IMG/VR virus record: IMGVR_UViG_3300029258_001254 | Location: 1-46,321 of that record | DNA: 46,321 nt | Source of the DNA: a virus | Reading direction: 5' to 3' (one strand) | Shown here: positions 3,490-30,888 of the stretch, one piece after another | Position numbering within the stretch: the stretch's first letter is position 1 | Layout: the number at the start of each line of letters is the position of its first letter | The notes under the pieces: generated by a model | Told to the model about the DNA's origin: nothing | Databases searched by the model: none | What the model saw: only the letters and a program-made list of their open reading frames with translations | Position numbers and translations under genes: made by a program

Positions 3490-3701
3490 GGCGAGCGGTT
3501 CAGGTGGCCGCATCGGGGGCAGACCCACGACCACGGCCGGGTCAACTCCGCGCGCAGCAGCTTACCGCATCGGCCCGGGGGATGCTGCCGGATCCCCTGG
3601 CAGCGCGGGTTCAGGTCGCGACGCGCTCCAGCGCCTTCAGGGCGTCGGCCGCCTGGCGCTGGAACGCTCGCCGAAACGCTTCCGTTGCGCTCGCTTCCCA
3701 T
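3486..3701 (-). CDS. Com-like small zinc-finger protein
   Basis: The C-terminal half carries the pattern CQGIRQHPPGRCGKLL...CPRCGHLN, which resembles the phage Mu Com family (an RNA-binding zinc finger ending in CPRC-x-x-x-N). Com activates translation of the mom DNA-modification gene in Mu. Com-like proteins elsewhere often lie next to terminase or portal genes without mom. The first half overlaps the 3' end of the portal gene in another frame. ATG at 3701 has GGAG eight bases upstream, giving 71 residues. A shorter product starting after the portal stop at 3611 is also possible. No mom-like gene was seen. Confidence 0.55.
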   Translation of the reverse strand: MGSERNGSVSASVPAPGGRRPEGAGARRDLNPRCQGIRQHPPGRCGKLLRAELTRPWSWVCPRCGHLNRSP

Positions 3702-5719
3702 GGCAATCGCTCCGACTCGTTCACCTTCCATAGCTGATCCCGTGCCTCCAGGGTTCGCGGCTCGGCGTTGGCATCGACCACCGGCGCGACCGCGCACCGG
3801 CAGTTGATGTCCATCGATGCGATCCCGAACTCGCCGGGATAGGGCGCGGTCATGCCGTCGATCTCGAAGTCGTCGCGCAGCGGGATCGGCGGCTGGCCGC
3901 CGAGCTGTTCATGCTCCGGCCTTACCTTTTCGTCCGGGGTGTGTAGCCATTCCTTCGCTTCGACGATGCCGCTTTGCCCGTAGGCTTCGAACGACCCGAA
4001 CGAGCTGGAGCGGACCGACTCCGTCCGCGCGATCGTCTGCGCTCGGGTCTCGCCCATCCACGCGAATTCGTCGGTCAGCCGCTCGGCCAGCTCGCGCACG
4101 CCTTCGCCGCGTTGCATCCCCTCGACCAGGGTGATCCGGATCCGGATCCGACTCTCGAGGTTGATTCCCTCCATCCGGTCGGCGCCGAACTCCAGAAGGT
4201 GGCTGACCACCTTCGGGTTCCGCATATCGAAGCGGACCCCGACGTTCAGATCGCCCAGCACGCGATCGCCCCATGCCTGCAGCTCGTCGTTCCACACCGG
4301 CAGGGCTTCGTCGGCCAGCGTCTCCGGCCGCATCGATTCGAGGACGACCTGGATCCCGTTGGGGTCGATCGCCTTCGCCCGCGGCGCCTCCAGTTCCTTC
4401 GGCCGCGGCTGCGCCGGCAGCTCGCGAATGTTAGACGAGCCGGTGGCGTCGGGCTCGGGCGCCGTCACGGTCGTCAGGTTCAACGGCTGCAGGTGGACGT
4501 CGTCGCCCTCGCCGCGGTTCTCGAACTCCGCCAGCTCGCGCCAGTCGGCGCGCGTGAACATATACGGGGCGGCCTTCATCACCTCCAGGGCGAAGGTCCG
4601 ATCGGACGGGACTGGGCTGACGTAGTCCAGGATCAGCCGCCCGTCGTAGCGCGGTACTAGCTCCTCCTGGAGCTGTTCGCGGAACGGCTCCAGCCGCGGG
4701 ACCAGCACGGACGTCGCCATGATGTTCTCCGACTCGTGAGCCGTGGCGCGGTTCGAGCTGGTGACGATCCCGAGCTGTTCGGGCGGGACGCCGAACACGT
4801 TGATCACGGTGTCGCGCTCCGACTCGCGGAGTTGCTGCAACTCCATATCCGTGAATTTCTGCGTCAGCTCCTTCACGTCGATCTTGGTGTTGTGCCACCA
4901 CGATCGGTGCGCGCGTCCGAAGCCCTGGTGCTGGTTCTCGAATCGCTGTTTCGCCTCCTTCAGTTGCTCGCCGTCCAGACCTTCGATCGAGATCAGCAGC
5001 TCGGGCTTCGCGCGGTTCCGGAAGAACGTTTTGACGAACTGCGCGGCGTATTCGTCGGTCTCGATCTCGTCGGTCAGCGACTCCGCCGTGCCGGCGCCGC
5101 GGCCGTAGGGGTCGGCCGGGTCAGGGTCGCGGAACCAAATGACGTCGTCCTTCGGCAGCGTGAACCGCTGGCCGGCGATCTGGAGCTGGTAGACGCCGTC
5201 CTCCCCCACCGGCAGATCGGTCACCCACGACGGCGGTAGCGGCCAGAACTCCGACGGCACGCCCAGCGGGTTCATCCCCAGCGCCCAGAACGACTCGCCG
5301 ACGATGTCCCGATATAGCTGCGTCAGCAGCCGGCCGGCGCTGCCGGTCATGAAAGGGTTGGCGGTGTTCAGCAGGATCAGGAGCGGGTGGATCTCGATCT
5401 GCGTCACCTCGCCCGCTTGCTTCAGTCGCCGGATCTCCGCGTGGCGATCGTACGGGCCCATATCCTTCAGCGTCCCCGCGTCGCGGAAGCCGCGCTCCTC
5501 GTTCCCGACGGCGTAGAGCTGCCAGGACACGGCGGCGAATCGCTGGCTGATTTTCTTCGTCACCGCCTGAAGCCACGGGCTGACCCGGTACATTTGGATC
5601 AGCTCGGCCGTGTTGCGACGCGCGGCCGGTTGCATCGTGGTCATATGGATCGCCTGCTGCAGGCTTTCGTTCAGGTCCTTCCCCAGCAGCCAGGCGCCGA
5701 AACGCTGGATCACGTTCAT
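3611..5719 (-). CDS. Portal protein fused to a MuF/SPP1 gp7-type minor head domain
   Basis: 702 residues. I chose ATG 5719 because GGGAG lies eight bases upstream and the ATGA overlaps the previous stop. Residues 1 to about 430 are an HK97/SPP1-class portal, with YRVSPWLQAVTKKIS, DVIWFRDPDPADPYGRG and FGVPPEQLGI. Residues about 480-650 match phage MuF/head-morphogenesis domains: RIRITLVEGMQRGEGVRELA, ARTESVRSSSFGSFEAYGQ, then a W-x-H-x-P-D-x-x-V-R-x-E-H segment and DINCRCAV. The two activities are usually separate adjacent genes. The dodecameric portal forms the DNA channel, and the MuF part probably lies inside the prohead. Confidence 0.9.
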   Translation of the reverse strand: MNVIQRFGAWLLGKDLNESLQQAIHMTTMQPAARRNTAELIQMYRVSPWLQAVTKKISQRFAAVSWQLYAVGNEERGFRDAGTLKDMGPYDRHAEIRRLKQAGEVTQIEIHPLLILLNTANPFMTGSAGRLLTQLYRDIVGESFWALGMNPLGVPSEFWPLPPSWVTDLPVGEDGVYQLQIAGQRFTLPKDDVIWFRDPDPADPYGRGAGTAESLTDEIETDEYAAQFVKTFFRNRAKPELLISIEGLDGEQLKEAKQRFENQHQGFGRAHRSWWHNTKIDVKELTQKFTDMELQQLRESERDTVINVFGVPPEQLGIVTSSNRATAHESENIMATSVLVPRLEPFREQLQEELVPRYDGRLILDYVSPVPSDRTFALEVMKAAPYMFTRADWRELAEFENRGEGDDVHLQPLNLTTVTAPEPDATGSSNIRELPAQPRPKELEAPRAKAIDPNGIQVVLESMRPETLADEALPVWNDELQAWGDRVLGDLNVGVRFDMRNPKVVSHLLEFGADRMEGINLESRIRIRITLVEGMQRGEGVRELAERLTDEFAWMGETRAQTIARTESVRSSSFGSFEAYGQSGIVEAKEWLHTPDEKVRPEHEQLGGQPPIPLRDDFEIDGMTAPYPGEFGIASMDINCRCAVAPVVDANAEPRTLEARDQLWKVNESERLPWEASATEAFRRAFQRQAADALKALERVAT

Positions 5720-5988
5720 CGGATCAACTCCCATCCGAACAGGAAACACTCGTAGGCGACGGCCGCCACGGCGCCGCCGAAGATCGACGCCGGCCCGACC
5801 AGCACGGCGAGCACGACCAGGGCGGCGAGCGCGCGGGCCGGCCGGCGCCGTCCTCGAGGATTGCTTGCCGTCGCCTGCGGCGGCGCAGCCTTTGGCGGTT
5901 GGCTACTGCTGGCCGACGCGCCACCGCAGGCGGGGCAAATGAAGTCACCACACCGGGGACAGTTCACGGCTTCGGTGTCGTCGCTCAT
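5716..5988 (-). CDS. Small zinc-ribbon membrane protein
   Basis: 90 residues. The N-terminus has two CxxC pairs, CPRCGDFICPACGG (residues 10-23), a zinc ribbon. Then comes a Ser/Pro/Arg-rich linker and one or two hydrophobic segments in residues 49-85 (ALAALVVLAVLVGPASIF and following), so the protein is probably anchored in the membrane. ATG at 5988 has AAGGTG six bases upstream. It overlaps the next gene (portal) and the previous one by ATGA. Function unknown. Confidence 0.7.
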   Translation of the reverse strand: MSDDTEAVNCPRCGDFICPACGGASASSSQPPKAAPPQATASNPRGRRRPARALAALVVLAVLVGPASIFGGAVAAVAYECFLFGWELIR

Positions 5989-8155: not shown

Positions 8156-8619
8156 GGCGTGAACTCCCCGGGGATGATCGTCCGCGGCTCGCCGGTGATC
8201 AGGTCCGGGACGCGGTCCGTCGTCGCGAGCTGGTAGATCCCGCAGATCATCCCCACGCAACAGGTCTGCCTGTCGCCCGGCGCCGTGCCCACTAGGCGGC
8301 TGAAGGCGTCGTACGGTGCGGGTCGTCCCTCGCACGGGCACGGGTCGGCGGTCTCGCTGAAGCGCCCGCAGTCGGGGCAGACGAACAGCGCGCGGCCCGG
8401 GGCGAGCGGGTGGACCCCGTCCTCGAAGTGGATCTCCACGGGCTGGGCGATGTTGCCGCTGGTCGGCTCGCGCCATTCCACGAACTCGCCGCCAACCTGG
8501 TAGCCGTAGGTCGCCCACGCCTTGATCCAGTGTTCGATGTTGTCCTCCATCTTTATCGCCACGATCTTCGCGTGCGTGATCTTCGGCGGCGGGTCGATTG
8601 GGGCGGGAAGGGTGATCAT
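8152..8619 (-). CDS. Zinc-ribbon protein of the fibre cassette, unknown
   Basis: 155 residues from ATG 8619, with AAGGAG six bases upstream. The N-terminal half is neutral (MITLPAPIDPPPKITHAKI, HWIKAWATYGYQVGG). The middle has a metal-binding pattern, CPDCGRF...CPCEG near residues 80-95, and a later CCVGMIC. It is coupled by ATGA to the glycosyltransferase before it and by GTGA to the fibre-like gene after it. I do not recognise the family. Confidence 0.7.
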   Translation of the reverse strand: MITLPAPIDPPPKITHAKIVAIKMEDNIEHWIKAWATYGYQVGGEFVEWREPTSGNIAQPVEIHFEDGVHPLAPGRALFVCPDCGRFSETADPCPCEGRPAPYDAFSRLVGTAPGDRQTCCVGMICGIYQLATTDRVPDLITGEPRTIIPGEFTP

Positions 8620-9854
8620 GTTCGGCTCCTTCTGTTGGTCGCCTGGTGGTAGACGTCGACCGTGGCATCGGCCGCGGTCTGCCAGGAATAGTCGCGGGCC
8701 CGGCGCCGGCCGAGCTGTCGCAGCTCGTCGCGCTTCGCCGGGTCCTTCAGTTCGTCCAGCGCCGCAATGATCGCCGCTGGCGAGCGCGGCGGGATGATCA
8801 TGGCGTATTCGTCGCCGCCCTCCGGCGCCACGATCTCGCCCAGGCCGTCGACCTCCGTGGAGATCAGCGGGGCGCCCATGGCCATAGCTTCGAGCGCGAC
8901 GATCCCGAACGGCTCGTGAGTCGACGGCATGATCACCACGTCGGCGGCGGCGTACAGGTCGCGGAGCCGCTGGCCGTGCCGGAAGCCCAGCCACCGGAAC
9001 CGCTCGGGGTGTTCGCGCTCGGCCGCGCGTAGCCGCTGCGTCAGTTCCCACCCTTCGCGTTCTTCCTCGTTGTTCGCGTTCACCTCGCCGGCAGCCGCGA
9101 TCTGCCAGCCGGTGTCCGTGCTCTCCACGACCTCGAGGACGTGTTGGATCCCCTTCATCGTCGCGATCCGCCCGACGTACAGCGCGACGGGCCGGTCGCG
9201 GTCCAGCACGTTCGCAGCTCGCCCGCGGTCGCGGTCGCCGGCACCAGGGTTCCACTCGTCCAGGTCGATCCCGTTGGGGATCATCGTCACCGGGCGATCC
9301 GTCAGGAACGTCCGCCGCACGGTGTCGACGTAGGAGCCCGAGCACAAGATCAGATCGTCCACCTCGCAGACCAAGGCTCCCTCCTGGTTCATCATGTAGA
9401 GATCGGCCTCGCGCAGGCTGCCATAGTCGATCGCCGGGTTCTCCTGCTGCGCCAGCGCCGTCAGGCAAAGGTGCATCGTCCCGACCATCGGCACGCCCAG
9501 CGCGTCGCGCGCGGTCTTGGCAACCTGTAGGCTGTTCCACTCGTGAACGTGGACGAGATCCCAGCGGTGGCCTTCCGCGAACAGCCGTAGCAGCGTCCGA
9601 AGCATTTGGATGTCCAGCAGGGACAGGCACGCGAAGTCGGGGCGCCGCGGTTTCCAGCAGGCCAGCTTGTCGCTGTAGTGTTTTCGGAAGCCCAGGTAGT
9701 CGACCGACCCCTCGCGCTCGCCGTCGGTCAGTAGGTCGATCGCCACGTCGTCGCGCTTCGACATCGCCCGGTACAGCTCGCGGACGTGCATCCCCATACC
9801 GCCCAGGATGCGCTCCGGGTCCTCGTAGCAAATGGCCAGGACCTTCAGCGTCAT
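8616..9854 (-). CDS. GT4-family glycosyltransferase (GT-B fold)
   Basis: 412 residues, the normal length for the family. The N-terminus has the glycogen-synthase-like start MTLKVLAICYEDPERILGGMG with the Gly-Gly-x-x-x-H pattern of nucleotide-sugar enzymes. Further features are VHVHEWNS near residue 120, ALYVGRIATMKGIQ starting the C-terminal Rossmann domain, and the donor-binding motif HEPFGIVALEAMAMG (E-x7-E). It transfers a sugar from a nucleotide-sugar donor to an unknown acceptor, and the sequence does not identify either one. It is ATGA-coupled to a fibre-like paralogue before it and a zinc-ribbon protein after it. Glycosylation of virion proteins is therefore more likely than of host envelope or DNA, but this is inference. 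Confidence 0.9.
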   Translation of the reverse strand: MTLKVLAICYEDPERILGGMGMHVRELYRAMSKRDDVAIDLLTDGEREGSVDYLGFRKHYSDKLACWKPRRPDFACLSLLDIQMLRTLLRLFAEGHRWDLVHVHEWNSLQVAKTARDALGVPMVGTMHLCLTALAQQENPAIDYGSLREADLYMMNQEGALVCEVDDLILCSGSYVDTVRRTFLTDRPVTMIPNGIDLDEWNPGAGDRDRGRAANVLDRDRPVALYVGRIATMKGIQHVLEVVESTDTGWQIAAAGEVNANNEEEREGWELTQRLRAAEREHPERFRWLGFRHGQRLRDLYAAADVVIMPSTHEPFGIVALEAMAMGAPLISTEVDGLGEIVAPEGGDEYAMIIPPRSPAAIIAALDELKDPAKRDELRQLGRRRARDYSWQTAADATVDVYHQATNRRSRT

Positions 9855-15867: not shown

Positions 15868-17085
15868 TCACGACTTCCGCCGTCGACCCTTGGCCTTCGT
15901 CCGTCCTCGAGGACGCTTGGCCGTCGTCGCCCCCACGCGCTTCGCCTTCCCGCCGCTGACGTTTTGCCACCGCTCCACGATCACGTCGGCGAACTTCGGA
16001 TCCAGCTCCATCACGCGGCACGGTCGATCCAGTTGCTCGGCGGCGATCAGGGTCGAGCCCGATCCGCCGAACGGTTCGAACACGATCCCACCTGGCGCCG
16101 CGCTGTTCCGGATCCCGCGGGCCGGCAACTCGACCGGCTTTTGCGTGGGGTGGAGGTATTCGCGATCCCTGTCGACGGTCCACAGGTCCGATTGCTTTCG
16201 GTCGCTGTACCAATACGCGTCACCACCGCCCCGGCCCTTCCACCCGAAATAGATAAACTCGAACTGGCTGTGATAGTTCCGCCGCCGCAGCACGAAGGCA
16301 TCTTTGGCCCACACCAGGATCCGCGGCTGGAGCTGTAGATGGTGATCGAACAGCTTGGCGTACATTTCAAAATTCGTGGAGCCGCCGCAGAGGTAGAGCC
16401 GGGCGTTGTCGTCCAGCGCGTGATCGACGGCGACCGCGAACGAGATCGGGATCACCGCCTGCGTCAGGTCGCCGCTGATCGCGTTCTTCTTTGCGCCTCC
16501 GAAGATCACGCCGTAGGGGGGATCGGTGAACATCAGCGCGGCGCGTGACTTGCCCATCAGCTTCGCCACGTCCTCGCGCTTCGTGGAGTCGCCGCACAGC
16601 AGGACGTGACGCCCGAGCCGCCAGACGTCGCCGGGCTTCGTGGTCGCACGCTTCGGCAGCTCGGGCGCGTCGTCCTCGTCCACCTGCGAGTCCATCCCCG
16701 CGACGAACGCCACGAACTCGCGATCGCTCCAGCCCAGGCCGTCGATCACCTGCTGGTCCCCGATCCGCTTCAGGTCCTCGTAGACCCCACGGTCGTCCCA
16801 CTCGGCCAGTTCGGCGGATCGATTGTCGACCAGCCCGAGATCGCGCAGGTCGTCGGGCGTCAGGTCGTCGGCCGGCGTCACCTCGCACGACTCCCAACCG
16901 AGCTCACGCATCACCTGAAGCCGCCCGTTGCCGACGTGGACGACGTTGCCACGGACGATCAGGGGGAGCCGCTGGCCGAACCGCTCCAGCGAGTAGCGGA
17001 TCGCTGCCAGGTTCCGTTTCGTCCGCTTGCGCCGGTTGTTGGGGTCGAACACGAGATCGGCCACCTTCGCCTTCTTGATCTTCAT
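15868..17085 (-). CDS. ParB-like nuclease domain fused to a beta-class DNA adenine/cytosine-N4 methyltransferase
   Basis: 405 residues. Residues 1-130 match ParB/Sulfiredoxin-like domains: a VADLVFDPNNRR start, LIVRGNVVHVGNGRLQVMRE containing the GNGR motif (52-55), and LVDNRSAELAEWD. Residues 150-380 are an amino-methyltransferase: catalytic DPPYG (188-192), HPTQKPVELPARG, then the SAM-binding EPFGGSGST near 340. DPPY before FxGxG is the beta-class order. The tail is Lys/Arg-rich. It would methylate the exocyclic amino group of A or C, with the ParB part perhaps giving DNA contact. It lies next to the putative origin and small terminase. Confidence 0.9.
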   Translation of the reverse strand: MKIKKAKVADLVFDPNNRRKRTKRNLAAIRYSLERFGQRLPLIVRGNVVHVGNGRLQVMRELGWESCEVTPADDLTPDDLRDLGLVDNRSAELAEWDDRGVYEDLKRIGDQQVIDGLGWSDREFVAFVAGMDSQVDEDDAPELPKRATTKPGDVWRLGRHVLLCGDSTKREDVAKLMGKSRAALMFTDPPYGVIFGGAKKNAISGDLTQAVIPISFAVAVDHALDDNARLYLCGGSTNFEMYAKLFDHHLQLQPRILVWAKDAFVLRRRNYHSQFEFIYFGWKGRGGGDAYWYSDRKQSDLWTVDRDREYLHPTQKPVELPARGIRNSAAPGGIVFEPFGGSGSTLIAAEQLDRPCRVMELDPKFADVIVERWQNVSGGKAKRVGATTAKRPRGRTKAKGRRRKS

Positions 17086-21292: not shown

Positions 21293-21639
21293 TCGGCCAG
21301 CCACGACGCCACCTCCGTCAGTGCCCGCGGCTCGCCCATGTAGAACACGGGCAGCCCGAGCGCGGTCGCGATGTCCAGCTCTGCCAGCGATCCGGCGCTG
21401 GAGCGGAAGCGGGGCGCGAGCGCGATCGCGTCGCTGCGGCGCAAAAGCGCCGCCGTCCCGTCCAGCCAGAAGCGATCGGACAGCGTCCGATCCCAAAAGC
21501 GGTACATGCTGTGCGGGACGAGCGGCACGGCGCCGAGCTGCGCCAGCTCGAACCCGATCCGCTCCGCCTCGCGCACGTTCAGCTCGACGCGCCAGGAATC
21601 GCCGGCACGGTAGGGGCCGGCCACGTAGATCACTTTCAT
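21289..21639 (-). CDS. Nucleoside 2-deoxyribosyltransferase-like protein (DUF4406/DUF1937 type)
   Basis: 116 residues from ATG 21639 (ATGA overlap with the methyltransferase). It starts MKVIYVAGPYRAGD, the typical first strand and loop of the deoxyribosyltransferase fold. It goes on with NVREAERIGFELAQLGAVPL, VPHSMYRFWD, a DAIALAPRF strand, SAGSLAELDIATALGLPVFY with the candidate catalytic Glu, and a final helix. The family exchanges or cleaves bases on deoxynucleosides, and many phage members are uncharacterised. Coupling to a DNA methyltransferase hints at nucleotide or base metabolism for modified DNA. Confidence 0.8.
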   Translation of the reverse strand: MKVIYVAGPYRAGDSWRVELNVREAERIGFELAQLGAVPLVPHSMYRFWDRTLSDRFWLDGTAALLRRSDAIALAPRFRSSAGSLAELDIATALGLPVFYMGEPRALTEVASWLAE

Positions 21640-22385
21640 CCGAACAACTCCAGGGTGTGGGGTTTGGCCAGGCGGTCGACCGCCTTGGCGTAGGTGGTGG
21701 GGTCGATCTCCGCGCCGACGCAGTTGCGTCCCTCCGCGCGGCAGGCCAGCAGCGTCGTCCCGGTCCCGGCAAACGGGTCCAGGATCAGATCGCCCGGCTT
21801 CGAGTAGAGCCGCACCAGCGCGCGGATCAAGTCCAGCGGCTTCTGGCCGGGGTGTGCCTTCTGGCCGTCGGTTCCCCTGGTCGAGCTGGTGCGGTGAATG
21901 AAGTATCCCGGCACGCTTCCGAGCATCCCGGCTTTCGACTTCGTGCGCGCCACCGTCAGCCACTCCACGGGCAGCTCGTCGGGCTCCGCCCTCGCCGCCA
22001 GGGTTATGTGTTCGGCCGCGGACGCCGGGCCGTCGCCAGACATCCGTGGTGCGGCGTCTGGCTTCACCCACGGGACAGGCTGGAACACGTAGAGCCCGTT
22101 GCGCTCGCAGTCGGAGCGATACCAGGACGCGGTGACGTGGTCCCCGAACAAAACCAGCCACCGGCGGATCCGCGGTGCAAAGAAGTCCACGATCTCCTGC
22201 GCCTGGCAGCGCGTGATCGAGCCGTAGGAGATCGAGGACTGGCGAACTTCGGATCCGGTGCGCCGGCCTTCGTGGGTCTTACGGCTGAAGGGCGGGTCCG
22301 TGATCACGGCGTCGATCTCGTCGTAGTCCTCGAGGACGGTTCGCCAGTCGCCGAGCCGCAGATCGATCAGGGGTGGGCGCTTCAT
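21636..22385 (-). CDS. DNA amino-methyltransferase, beta class (N4-cytosine or N6-adenine)
   Basis: 249 residues from ATG 22385 with AAAGGCG upstream. The order is catalytic DPPF (residues 30-33) after DAVIT, then FAPRIRRWLVLFGDHVTASW, a PGQKPLDLIRALVRLYSKPG motif and the SAM-binding DPFAGTGTT near 205 followed by AEIDPTTYAKAV. This is a complete amino-methyltransferase of normal length. No restriction enzyme is next to it, so self-protection or regulation of phage DNA is more likely than a full restriction system. The target base and site are unknown. Confidence 0.9.
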   Translation of the reverse strand: MKRPPLIDLRLGDWRTVLEDYDEIDAVITDPPFSRKTHEGRRTGSEVRQSSISYGSITRCQAQEIVDFFAPRIRRWLVLFGDHVTASWYRSDCERNGLYVFQPVPWVKPDAAPRMSGDGPASAAEHITLAARAEPDELPVEWLTVARTKSKAGMLGSVPGYFIHRTSSTRGTDGQKAHPGQKPLDLIRALVRLYSKPGDLILDPFAGTGTTLLACRAEGRNCVGAEIDPTTYAKAVDRLAKPHTLELFG

Positions 22386-22567
22386 CGCTTCGCCTTTCGC
22401 TTCAGGTGGGGCGCGTACTGAGCCGGCCGCCGGCATAGCCGGTGGTGTCTCCGCGGGACGACCAGGCACGCGGCGCAAAGGTAGTAGCCGTCGGGGCAGC
22501 TCGCGCAATGCAACACGGTCGGCGCCCGGCAGCTCGCGCACGGGGTCAGGCGGACGGCGGCGGTCAC
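22382..22567 (-). CDS. Small B-box-like zinc protein, unknown
   Basis: 61 residues from GTG 22567 (GTGA overlap). It has Cys/His pairs CASCRAPTVLHCASC, YYLCAACLVVPRRHHRLC, then a basic tail. The CxxC-x8-CxxC-x7-CxxC...H-H-x-x-C spacing resembles a cross-brace zinc finger. Possible protein-protein contact module. Function unknown. Confidence 0.65.
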   Translation of the reverse strand: MTAAVRLTPCASCRAPTVLHCASCPDGYYLCAACLVVPRRHHRLCRRPAQYAPHLKRKAKR

Positions 22568-23301
22568 CACGGCCTCGCGTGGTAGACGACGCCGCCCAGA
22601 TCGCCGCGGCCGTCGCTGTCCTTTTTGAAAAAGAACGGGACTCCAGCCCGGTCGCAGACCCGGCGCGCGTCGTGGAACCAATCGGGGTCAGCCCGCCGCG
22701 CCTTCTGCCCGGTCTCCGCCCCGGCGATCAGCCAGCCGAGCCGGCCGCCGCCGAACGTCGCCGCCATCGGTCCAGGCAGCCACGGGCGGAAGTCGACGGC
22801 GCCGAGCGCGGGCTCGTAGCTGACGAAGTGACCGGCGGCCGGTACGGTCAGCAGTACGGGGATCCGCTCGTCGGCGCGCGCCTGGTTCTCCACGCTGACG
22901 CCCAGCCAGACGTTCGGCAGCGGGTCGCGGTTCTCCAGGTACTTCCGCATCGACCCCGGCCGCTTCGTCAGGACCAGGAACCGATGCCGCTCGGCGGCTG
23001 CCATCACGCGCCAGACGTGATCGCGCCAGACGTGCAGGACGCCGTCGCCGAAAAGGTCCGCCATCGAACAGACGAAGATCGCGGCCGGCTTGCGCCACCG
23101 GCCGGGCTCGTCCAGCCGCTTCGCCACCAGCTCGGCGCGGCCGTCCCACTCCTTCACGCGCTCGTAGCCCTGGACGCCGGCACCAGCCAGCCGCCGGGCG
23201 AAGGGTCGCGCGTAGCAACGGGCGCAGCCTTCAGAGATCGGCGCGCAGCCGATCACCGGGTTCCAGACCTTGTCGGCCCACTCGATCGCTGTCGTGGTCA
23301 T
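22564..23301 (-). CDS. Phage Gp37/Gp68-like protein (DUF5131 type)
   Basis: 245 residues from ATG 23301, with GGAAGG upstream. The N-terminus MTTTAIEWADKVWNPVIGCA followed by SEGCARCYARPFARR is the hallmark of this family: W-N-P-x-x-G-C...G-C-x-x-C-Y. Later features are IFVCSMADLFGD, FLVLTKRPGSM, PNVWLGVSVENQ, FVSYEPALG and WLIAGAETG. The conserved cysteines suggest an iron-sulphur or zinc site and the strand pattern a TIM barrel. The biochemical role is not established to my knowledge. It is widespread in phages and sometimes near DNA-modification genes. Confidence 0.85.
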   Translation of the reverse strand: MTTTAIEWADKVWNPVIGCAPISEGCARCYARPFARRLAGAGVQGYERVKEWDGRAELVAKRLDEPGRWRKPAAIFVCSMADLFGDGVLHVWRDHVWRVMAAAERHRFLVLTKRPGSMRKYLENRDPLPNVWLGVSVENQARADERIPVLLTVPAAGHFVSYEPALGAVDFRPWLPGPMAATFGGGRLGWLIAGAETGQKARRADPDWFHDARRVCDRAGVPFFFKKDSDGRGDLGGVVYHARPW

Positions 23302-23489
23302 GGTCGCCTTCCTTTCGACGCCGCGACGCGGGCGCACGTTCGGCACGTCCCGATCCGCGTCCCTGTCGGCTCGTAGTACGCCACGACCTTCCCGCAGAGC
23401 GCGACGTCGTGGGGTGGTTCGGTCAGGTGGACGACGCCACGCCACGACCTCCACCGCTTGAATCGGTTGGACAGCCGGCGCAGTTCCAT
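23298..23489 (-). CDS. Small basic zinc protein, unknown
   Basis: 63 residues from ATG 23489 (TGATG overlap). It has LCGKVV...CRTCARV and a W-R-S-W-R-G segment: a single split zinc site in a basic protein. Such DUF-type proteins often follow early replication genes. Unknown. Confidence 0.65.
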   Translation of the reverse strand: MELRRLSNRFKRWRSWRGVVHLTEPPHDVALCGKVVAYYEPTGTRIGTCRTCARVAASKGRRP

Positions 23490-23887
23490 CACCGCGCCAG
23501 CCTGTCCGCCGGCAGTTCGACCCAATCCGGCGCGCTGGGGTCCAGCTCGCCCGCCAGAACGCCGCGTGCGTCCTCCAGGCAGTCCACCGCGGCCCCGATG
23601 CCACCGGACCGCCGCACGCGCTTCAGGAACGCCACCTGGGACGCCCAGCGCGCTTTGTCCTTCGCGTTGCGTGGTCGCCACCCAGGCCGCTTCACCTCCA
23701 GCGCAGCGAAGCGGCCGGAGCCGCGGAGTTGACCCACCAGGTCGGAGCCGCCGGGGCCGCCCAGCCCGTAGGTGACCTTGTGCGTCCCGAAGTCGGCGAC
23801 GCCGACGGCGTTGACCATCAGATCCGCCAGCTCACAGCAGCCGAGCCGAATGGCGCGGACGACGTCCCGCTCTGTCACCGGCGGCAC
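23489..23887 (-). CDS. VRR-NUC type PD-(D/E)xK nuclease
   Basis: 132 residues from GTG 23887 (TAGTG overlap). The catalytic core is seen as GGPGGSDLVGQL (Asp49) and FAALEVKRPG (Glu64-x-Lys66), followed by a helix and WASQVAFLKRVRRSGGIGAA, the V-R-R-type strand of the family. VRR-NUC proteins resolve branched DNA, and phage copies may serve as Holliday-junction resolvases. Here it lies among recombination genes. Confidence 0.85.
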   Translation of the reverse strand: MPPVTERDVVRAIRLGCCELADLMVNAVGVADFGTHKVTYGLGGPGGSDLVGQLRGSGRFAALEVKRPGWRPRNAKDKARWASQVAFLKRVRRSGGIGAAVDCLEDARGVLAGELDPSAPDWVELPADRLAR

Positions 23888-28916: not shown

Positions 28917-29821
28917 GCTGCCACCTCCGCGATCAGCCGGCGCGCGACCGGCGGACAGACGGCGTTGCCCAGCCCGCGGATCTTGTCCGTGCGCGTGGCG
29001 TCGTCCGGCCAGGTGTAGTTGTCGGGGAAGCCCATGGCGCGGGCGTTCTCGCGGACGGTCAGCGGCCGATACCGGCCGCGCCCAGCGTCGATCACCGCCC
29101 ATTGGTCGCCGGTGGTGATGGTGCGGATCGGGTCAGACAGCGGGATCCCCTTGTGCCCGGTGACGTGCTGAACCAGGCAGCGCGGCCCGTGCCGCTCGAT
29201 CGCCGCGTCGATCCGCTTGCGCGCGTTCCCGGTCGCCTGGCCGATCGGCCGCCACCGGCCGTCGGTCCAGTCGATGCACGGGCCGAAGGCGGGCTCGGTC
29301 GCGTCCGCCTCGAACGTGAGCTCACGCGGCGCGCGTTGGCCGACGACGAACAGCCGCCGCCGACGCTGCGGCACGCCGAAGTGGCTGGCCGTCAGGACGT
29401 GTTCGGTCAGCGTGTAGCCCAGCCGCTCCAGCGCCTCGCGCCAGACGGGGTAGAGCCGCCACCGGCGGAAGTCGGGGACGTTCTCCACGATGATCGCGGC
29501 GGGCTCCGTCACGTCGGCGCAGTCGACCACGGCCCAGGCGGTCGCGCGCAGGGCGTCGTGGTAGAGCCGGCGACGCGGCTGGCTGGCCTGGCTGTGACCC
29601 TGACACGCGGGCGACGCGAGGAGGAGATCGTAGGCCGGCAGCGCCGTCCAATCGGCCTGCCGGAGATCCTGGCAGACGTGCCGCGCCCGCGGGTGGTTCG
29701 CCGCGTGCGCCTGGACGGCGAGCGGCCAATGGTTGCCGGCCCACACGACATCGAGCCCGGCTTGCTCGGCGCCCAGGCTGAAGCCTCCCCACCCTGCGAA
29801 AAGATCGATCGCGCGCATCAT
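28913..29821 (-). CDS. DNA C5-cytosine methyltransferase
   Basis: 302 residues. Motif I is IDLFAGWGGFSLGAEQAG, motif IV is SPACQGHS with nucleophile Cys73, motif VI is IIVENV (110-115), motif VIII PQRRRRLFVV, motif IX-X RPLTVRENARAMGFPDNY and GLGNAVCPPVA. The usual Pro-Pro-Cys is Pro-Ala-Cys, a variant also known in phage enzymes, and the key Cys is intact. It transfers methyl from SAM to C5 of cytosine. Target recognition would lie between residues 165 and 235. The start may be 29821 or 29818, which only drops one Met. Confidence 0.92.
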   Translation of the reverse strand: MMRAIDLFAGWGGFSLGAEQAGLDVVWAGNHWPLAVQAHAANHPRARHVCQDLRQADWTALPAYDLLLASPACQGHSQASQPRRRLYHDALRATAWAVVDCADVTEPAAIIVENVPDFRRWRLYPVWREALERLGYTLTEHVLTASHFGVPQRRRRLFVVGQRAPRELTFEADATEPAFGPCIDWTDGRWRPIGQATGNARKRIDAAIERHGPRCLVQHVTGHKGIPLSDPIRTITTGDQWAVIDAGRGRYRPLTVRENARAMGFPDNYTWPDDATRTDKIRGLGNAVCPPVARRLIAEVAA

Positions 29822-30888
29822 GCCGCCACCGCCTTCCCGTCGAAGTCGTCCTCGAGGGCGGCGTCGTCCTCGACCAGCTCCGGATCGAACCAGCCGGCCG
29901 CCATCGACTCGGCCAGCAGCCGGCGGCCTTCGGCGATGAAGTGACCCTGCACGGTGCGGAACTTCACCTCGGCCGCGTTACCCTCCAGGTCGGGGCGGGC
30001 GGCCAGCAGCTCCAGCCGGCGGCGCGTCAGGTCGCGCGGGCCGCCGTTCGGCCCGTTGCGCAGGCCGACAAGGGCGGTGATCCGCACGCTGTCGCAGGTC
30101 ACGTCGGCGGCCCAGCGCGGGATCGAGCCGCGGACCTTGTCGAAGTCGGGCGAGTAGGGCCCAACCCCCAGCAGGTGGAAGCGGATCGCCAGCTCGTCCA
30201 CGTCGCGATCCCAGAGCAGATCGTCGCAATACTCCGCGAGCTGCGCGGCCGGCATGGCGCCCTTCTGCGACGGGATCCCCCGGATGAAGTCGACGCCCGG
30301 CAGCAGCTTCCGCACGGCGACGTCGAAGGCGATCATCGGCATCGGGCCGCGTTGCATCGGCACGATCACGTTGACCCGGTGGTCGCGTTGCATCGCGGCG
30401 ATCCGGTCGGCGTAACGGCGCAGACGGTTCAGCGTCTCCACCTGGTCGCCCACCTTGTCGGGCGCCACGACGTAGAGCTGGGTGCGAAGCGACGCGGCCA
30501 GCCGCTCGTAGACGGCGAGCCGCTGATCCCAATCGGCGTCGCTGATCGGCTTCACGTCGACCCACGACCAGGCCGGCGCGTCGGGGAACGGCAGGGTGCC
30601 GTTGCCGGCGCAGGTCCCCGCCTTACACTTCGCGCCGCGCCCGCAGACGTGCGGCCGGTTGAAGGCGACCTCGCCGAAGGCGCCGGAGTCGACAAACACG
30701 CGCATCGGGCCGCCCGCGTACAGCTCCAGCTCGCGCAGGGCGTCGCCCGACTTGTCGATCGCGTCGACTGCGATCCCGACGTCGTAGCCCGACAGGGCGA
30801 GCCCACGGATCTCGCCCGCGTGGTTCGACCCGCTGACGAAGTAGCCCTCGTGGGCTTCGTGGGGGAAGGTGTGGGGGTTTCCGGTCAT
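29818..30888 (-). CDS. DpdA-like protein (tRNA-guanine transglycosylase fold, possible 7-deazaguanine DNA insertion)
   Basis: 356 residues from ATG 30888. Motifs in TGT order: VFVDSGAFGEV (DSGAF 67-71), VAPDKVGDQVETL (142-153), VIVPMQRG (174-181), FIRGIPSQKG, FHLLGVG (237-243) and DVTCDSVRI with Asp266 as candidate nucleophile. These resemble the DpdA family, which exchanges guanine for preQ0-type bases in DNA and includes phage members. A Cys-rich insert (CGRGAKCKAGTC, 82-93) could bind zinc. No folE, queC, queD or queE genes are visible, so preQ0 would have to come from the host. It overlaps the C5-methyltransferase by ATGA. Seen: motifs and coupling. Inferred: DNA rather than tRNA substrate. 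Confidence 0.65.
   Translation of the reverse strand: MTGNPHTFPHEAHEGYFVSGSNHAGEIRGLALSGYDVGIAVDAIDKSGDALRELELYAGGPMRVFVDSGAFGEVAFNRPHVCGRGAKCKAGTCAGNGTLPFPDAPAWSWVDVKPISDADWDQRLAVYERLAASLRTQLYVVAPDKVGDQVETLNRLRRYADRIAAMQRDHRVNVIVPMQRGPMPMIAFDVAVRKLLPGVDFIRGIPSQKGAMPAAQLAEYCDDLLWDRDVDELAIRFHLLGVGPYSPDFDKVRGSIPRWAADVTCDSVRITALVGLRNGPNGGPRDLTRRRLELLAARPDLEGNAAEVKFRTVQGHFIAEGRRLLAESMAAGWFDPELVEDDAALEDDFDGKAVAA

Follow-up and report, generated by a model that had tools for sequence, protein, structure and literature searches.

P0002, a 356-residue protein encoded in the IMG/VR record IMGVR_UViG_3300029258_001254, belongs, within the tRNA-guanine transglycosylase (TGT) superfamily, to a divergent DpdA-like branch that is so far unnamed, and this family is linked to C5-cytosine DNA methyltransferases. 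The window, that is, the whole stretch of DNA analyzed, comprises the 46321 bases of the record. The gene, its fold class, the conserved catalytic positions, the DpdA-like ancestry, the missing synthesis genes and the methyltransferase linkage were all computed here. The DpdA-like assignment made in the initial annotation stood, while the separate clade, the presence of relatives on plasmids and within polyvalent proteins, and the methyltransferase link had escaped it. What looks new is the family and this setting (plasmids, polyvalent proteins, C5-methyltransferase) and not the absence of synthesis genes.

The gene and its conserved motifs

The phage genome of about 46.2 kb is probably complete, because an identical 144 bp sequence is shared by the start and the end of the record. 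It encodes a major head protein, a head protease, a terminase, a primase-polymerase and an exonuclease. A single 712-residue ORF (3611-5749, minus strand) has portal (residues 45-446) and head-morphogenesis or minor head (about 507-703) family matches and is predicted to combine a portal with a MuF-like domain. A glycosyltransferase-like protein (8616-9854, minus strand; phrog_2170, E 1.7e-15) lies amid the head genes. PADLOC returned weak, scattered matches, no DpdC (PF03883) was found in the window, and little synteny with the relatives was seen beyond the DpdA-like and methyltransferase genes.

The P0002 ORF is a real gene, because its GC content at the three codon positions (0.73/0.47/0.94) is strongly coding, above all at the third, its ATG start is preceded by GGAGG, and the following gene has an ATG that shares bases with the P0002 stop codon (ATGA). 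All five motifs named in the initial annotation were present (Table 1). Thirteen positions were invariant in the 47-row alignment (D67, S68, G69, A70, P143, D144, G147, G181, P206, H238, L240, G241 and D266), which argues that the motifs did not arise by chance.

Table 1. Positions in the window of the DpdA-like gene, its motifs and the adjacent methyltransferase gene
Feature	Position	Strand	Evidence
C5-cytosine DNA methyltransferase, 302 aa	28913..29821	-	PF00145 E 1.8e-47; intact catalytic motifs; ATG overlaps P0002 stop
DpdA-like DNA (guanine) transglycosylase gene, P0002, 356 aa	29818..30888	-	ORF, coding signature, AlphaFold2 model, TGT fold, DpdA profile
DSGAF, residues 67-71	30676..30690	-	D, S, G and A invariant in 47/47; hhalign to phage DpdA DSGAF
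Cys-rich insert, residues 82-93 (C82, C88, C93)	30610..30645	-	low-confidence loop; in 0/46 aligned relatives
APDKVGDQ, residues 142-149	30442..30465	-	P143, D144, G147 invariant; hhalign to DpdA LDxIGDP
VPMQRG, residues 176-181	30346..30363	-	Q179 in 43/47, G181 in 47/47; hhalign
HLLGVG, residues 238-243	30160..30177	-	H238, L240, G241 invariant; hhalign to VHGFG, H196 of 9g DpdA
TCDS, residues 264-267	30088..30099	-	D266 invariant in 47/47; modelled strand 262-268

The profile alignment paired DSGA with DSGA, PDxVGD with LDxIGD, PxQxG with FHxGE, GIPS with GGxV and HxLG with HGFG of phage DpdA. The two aspartates expected of a TGT, the acid/base in DSG(G/A) and the nucleophile after the HxxG strand, have D67 and D266 at their positions, and the histidine at position 196 of the 9g enzyme is retained as H238. 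TGT has DSGG at the place of DSGAF, and known phage DpdA proteins have H141 where P0002 has Q179. D266 is the candidate nucleophile; its counterparts would be D280 of the Zymomonas TGT and the aspartate of CDSSS in DpdA, the latter matched by order and motif outside the hhalign pairing. By analogy, D67, D144, H238 and D266 would have putative roles that follow TGT chemistry.

The cysteine-rich insert reported earlier was confirmed, with C82, C88 and C93 in a loop of pLDDT near 51-57 in the AlphaFold2 model. Its proposed use as a subfamily mark was rejected, since P0002 alone among the aligned sequences has it; the loop could bind a metal.

Relatives, fold and profile evidence

Searches with the single P0002 sequence gave no Pfam or NCBIfam family, no useful PDB sequence match and no close viral relative, and tblastn against 50,697 INPHARED phage records gave no match. 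A match to PF22435 (E 0.012, below cut-off) was taken as chance. A plasmid search, in contrast to these, yielded 18 weak relatives, among them a 2174-residue LPD1 polyvalent protein, and alignments built from the plasmid relatives led to 26 viral and 26 bacterial contigs with relatives. The nearest to P0002 were L034 (42%), L035 (38%) and L036 (36%). In 19 of the 26 viral relatives the domain sits in an ORF of 1602 residues or more, and the polyvalent relatives carry LPD1, LPD38, InPase and methyltransferase domains. The text on polyvalent proteins in PMC5512222 does not contain the terms TGT, queuine, archaeosine or deazaguanine; in the open papers searched, "polyvalent protein" and "DpdA" occurred together in one paper, on another system, and priority is thus not proven. 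On an Alteromonas plasmid (L002, 1796-3433) and a Pseudomonas aeruginosa megaplasmid (L005, 8599-10336), a PAPS reductase family gene lies near the DpdA-like gene.

P0002 and the Myxococcales contig L035 form a pair in the tree (100/93). Nine known phage DpdA proteins lie apart from the family (100/99), which falls outside the 9g-type clade. The deep branching order is unsure because long branches join the family and DpdA sides, and L012 and one DpdA form long end branches.

The AlphaFold2 model of P0002 (47 rows; pLDDT 86.1, pTM 0.85) had TGT as its top match in a PDB fold search (E 5.7e-5), with aldolases, epimerases and other TIM barrels close behind; by itself, this predicted structure sets TGT apart from other TIM barrels weakly. 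Among viral structures it matched a polyvalent protein (26% identity), the Mufasa8 queuine tRNA-ribosyltransferase and a Vibrio phage nt-1 protein. For the model of a plasmid relative (44 rows; pLDDT 96.3, pTM 0.92), 49 of the 50 top PDB matches were TGT, so that the TIM barrel of the family matched TGT structures in both models.

Profile comparison by hhalign gave 95.8% for the family against phage DpdA (E 7e-9 over 133 columns) versus 5.7% against 15 bacterial tRNA-TGTs, where similarity was confined to the DSG motif, and 0.1% against class II aldolase, a weak control of two sequences. The PHROG phrog_887, annotated as queuine tRNA-ribosyltransferase, was matched by 24 of the 47 family members (best E 1.4e-9), P0002 itself not being among them, and Pfam TGT (PF01702) by none of the 47. 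P0002 also has no Cys cluster of a C-terminal CxCxxC...H zinc site after D266. Fold, profile and motifs together place P0002 in the TGT superfamily nearest DpdA, and its DpdA-like ancestry and fold are held with high confidence. P0002 and relatives (29 of 47 members, best E 7.7e-9) matched phrog_15826, of unknown function, which possibly belongs to this family too.

Methyltransferase linkage and the source of the base

The C5-methyltransferase gene lies directly downstream of the P0002 gene, and in the closest relative, L034, one 1531-residue protein comprises InPase, C5-methyltransferase and DpdA-like domains. PF00145 matches were found in 14 of 27 viral records, 11 of them no more than 2.5 kb from the DpdA-like domain, versus 1.6 close placements expected at random; a number as high as 11 never came up in 20,000 random draws. 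The count of 11 overstates the number of independent events, because several records are related and some of the matches lie near or under the cut-off (three under the curated cut-off, four barely above it). The arrangement varies, with separate genes in the window and in L012 and the methyltransferase fused before or after the domain elsewhere.

The window methyltransferase was considered as a carboxymethyltransferase of the CmoX kind, for which an SPPC motif and an Arg in place of HhaI Asn-304 are the described marks (PMC12783734). It reads SPAC and GNAV, the equivalence of the latter to Asn-304 being set by motif only, so that it looks like an ordinary C5-methyltransferase. The phage has three methyltransferase genes in total: one ORF combines a ParB-like domain with a DNA methyltransferase (15868-17085, minus strand; phrog_498, E 1.4e-104), and another DNA methyltransferase is found at 21636-22541 (minus strand; phrog_67, E 5.6e-40).

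As the initial annotation had stated, preQ0 synthesis genes are lacking: Pfam models for QueC, QueD, FolE and Radical_SAM had no match on the window, with controls detected for all four, and the FolE, QueD, QueE and QueC pathway of preQ0-producing phages is thus not encoded there. In the 26 other viral records, several of which are fragments, there was no QueD and no QueC above cut-off (one weak partial match). A DUF5131 protein (22564-23604, minus strand; E 9.1e-72) has a Cys cluster, CAPISEGCARC; its reading as QueE is unsupported, the Radical_SAM match being absent.

Of 18 bacterial genomes that harbor relatives, 17 had a QueC match above cut-off (15 full-length, E below 1e-66), a count to be read against a high base rate, since most bacteria of these groups would carry QueC anyway. 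Of two metagenome bins, that of L034 had a weak partial QueC match and that of L036 none. The earlier suggestion that the phage uses host preQ0 agrees with these counts, which point to host preQ0 as the likeliest donor. This reading is not new, because phages with DpdA only, and the use of host intermediates, have been described and suggested, respectively (PMC6884629). In E. coli, 9g DpdA alone puts host preQ0 into plasmid DNA, and dPreQ0 gave no EcoRI resistance (PMC6884629); the former speaks for the mechanism proposed below, the latter against it.

Proposed mechanism and comparison with known systems

P0002 would act as a DNA-guanine transglycosylase of the divergent DpdA-like family. D266 would attack the deoxyguanosine sugar in phage DNA with release of guanine, D67 would serve as acid/base, and preQ0 or another 7-deazaguanine would be held at D144/Q179 and then inserted. 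As the phage makes none, preQ0 would be supplied by the host queuosine pathway. The co-translated C5-cytosine methyltransferase and P0002 would form an anti-restriction set that modifies both bases, G and C, in DNA that arrives or replicates. We infer DNA as the substrate, preQ0 as the donor and protection as the purpose, and the whole chain appears reasonably probable. Relatives in phages and plasmids probably help incoming DNA to resist restriction with a host-made base.

P0002 has Q179 where DpdA has His, and GIPS where it has GG; both probably lie in the base-binding wall, so the base bound by P0002 may differ from that of DpdA. An enzyme of DpdA fold with a changed specificity pocket could exchange a base other than preQ0, or insert another host-made or modified purine. 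Q179, GIPSN for GGxVG, the absence of QueC and QueD from the viral records of the whole family and the long branch that separates it from DpdA would fit such an enzyme. It is nonetheless unlikely, given that the Asp/Asp/His positions are as in DpdA and the hosts mostly carry the preQ0 pathway; Gln at this site is, moreover, what tRNA-TGT has, as Q203 of the Zymomonas enzyme.

A tRNA-modifying TGT that serves host takeover, and not DNA modification, would share the fold and accord with the PHROGs name for the related family, but the profile result (5.7% versus 95.8% for DpdA), the absence of a Pfam TGT match and of a Cys/His zinc site past the catalytic Asp, and the linkage and fusion to DNA methyltransferases make it improbable. 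More improbable still is an aldolase- or isomerase-like TIM barrel whose motifs are alike by chance: aldolases and epimerases did follow closely behind TGT in the search with the P0002 model, but the sharper family model returned TGT almost throughout its best matches, and the profile matched DpdA and not class II aldolase (two rows only).

With DNA-guanine exchange retained as the preferred reading, a broader and tentative one is that of a distinct base-exchange family of phages and plasmids, often housed in giant proteins that may enter the cell with the DNA, acting together with C5-cytosine methylation on the arriving DNA and using a base that is never self-made and possibly not preQ0. Phage DpdA surveys have dealt mostly with deposited phage genomes and with genes that neighbor preQ0 genes. 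The P0002 branch has no match in 50,697 phage records and is unnamed in Pfam and NCBIfam, yet is found in phages from metagenomes, on plasmids and within polyvalent proteins, which suggests that shielding of incoming DNA, plasmids included, by a host-supplied 7-deazaguanine is more widespread. P0002 and its methyltransferase would pair G exchange with C methylation.

P0002 shares with 9g-type phage DpdA (PMC6884629) the fold class, the motif order (DSGA / D..GD / x.G / HxxG / D) and His196, kept as H238, and some known DpdA phages also are without preQ0 genes. The family differs from this type in its separate clade, in Gln for His in the P.Q.G motif, and in having no INPHARED tblastn match and no preQ0 genes in the viral records examined. 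The candidate for DpdA2 of Vibrio phage nt-1, R9TGF0 (464 aa), was among the best viral fold matches of P0002; DpdA2, however, is without the conserved His196 that the P0002 family has, and the DpdA2 phages described so far in that study encode preQ0 or G+ genes (PMC6884629). Bacterial tRNA-guanine transglycosylase (Tgt, PF01702) shares the fold, the DSG motif and the position of the catalytic Asp with P0002, and differs in its Pfam match, its zinc site and a profile likeness limited to the DSG motif. Many relatives of P0002 are domains of polyvalent proteins (PMC5512222), while P0002 stands alone.
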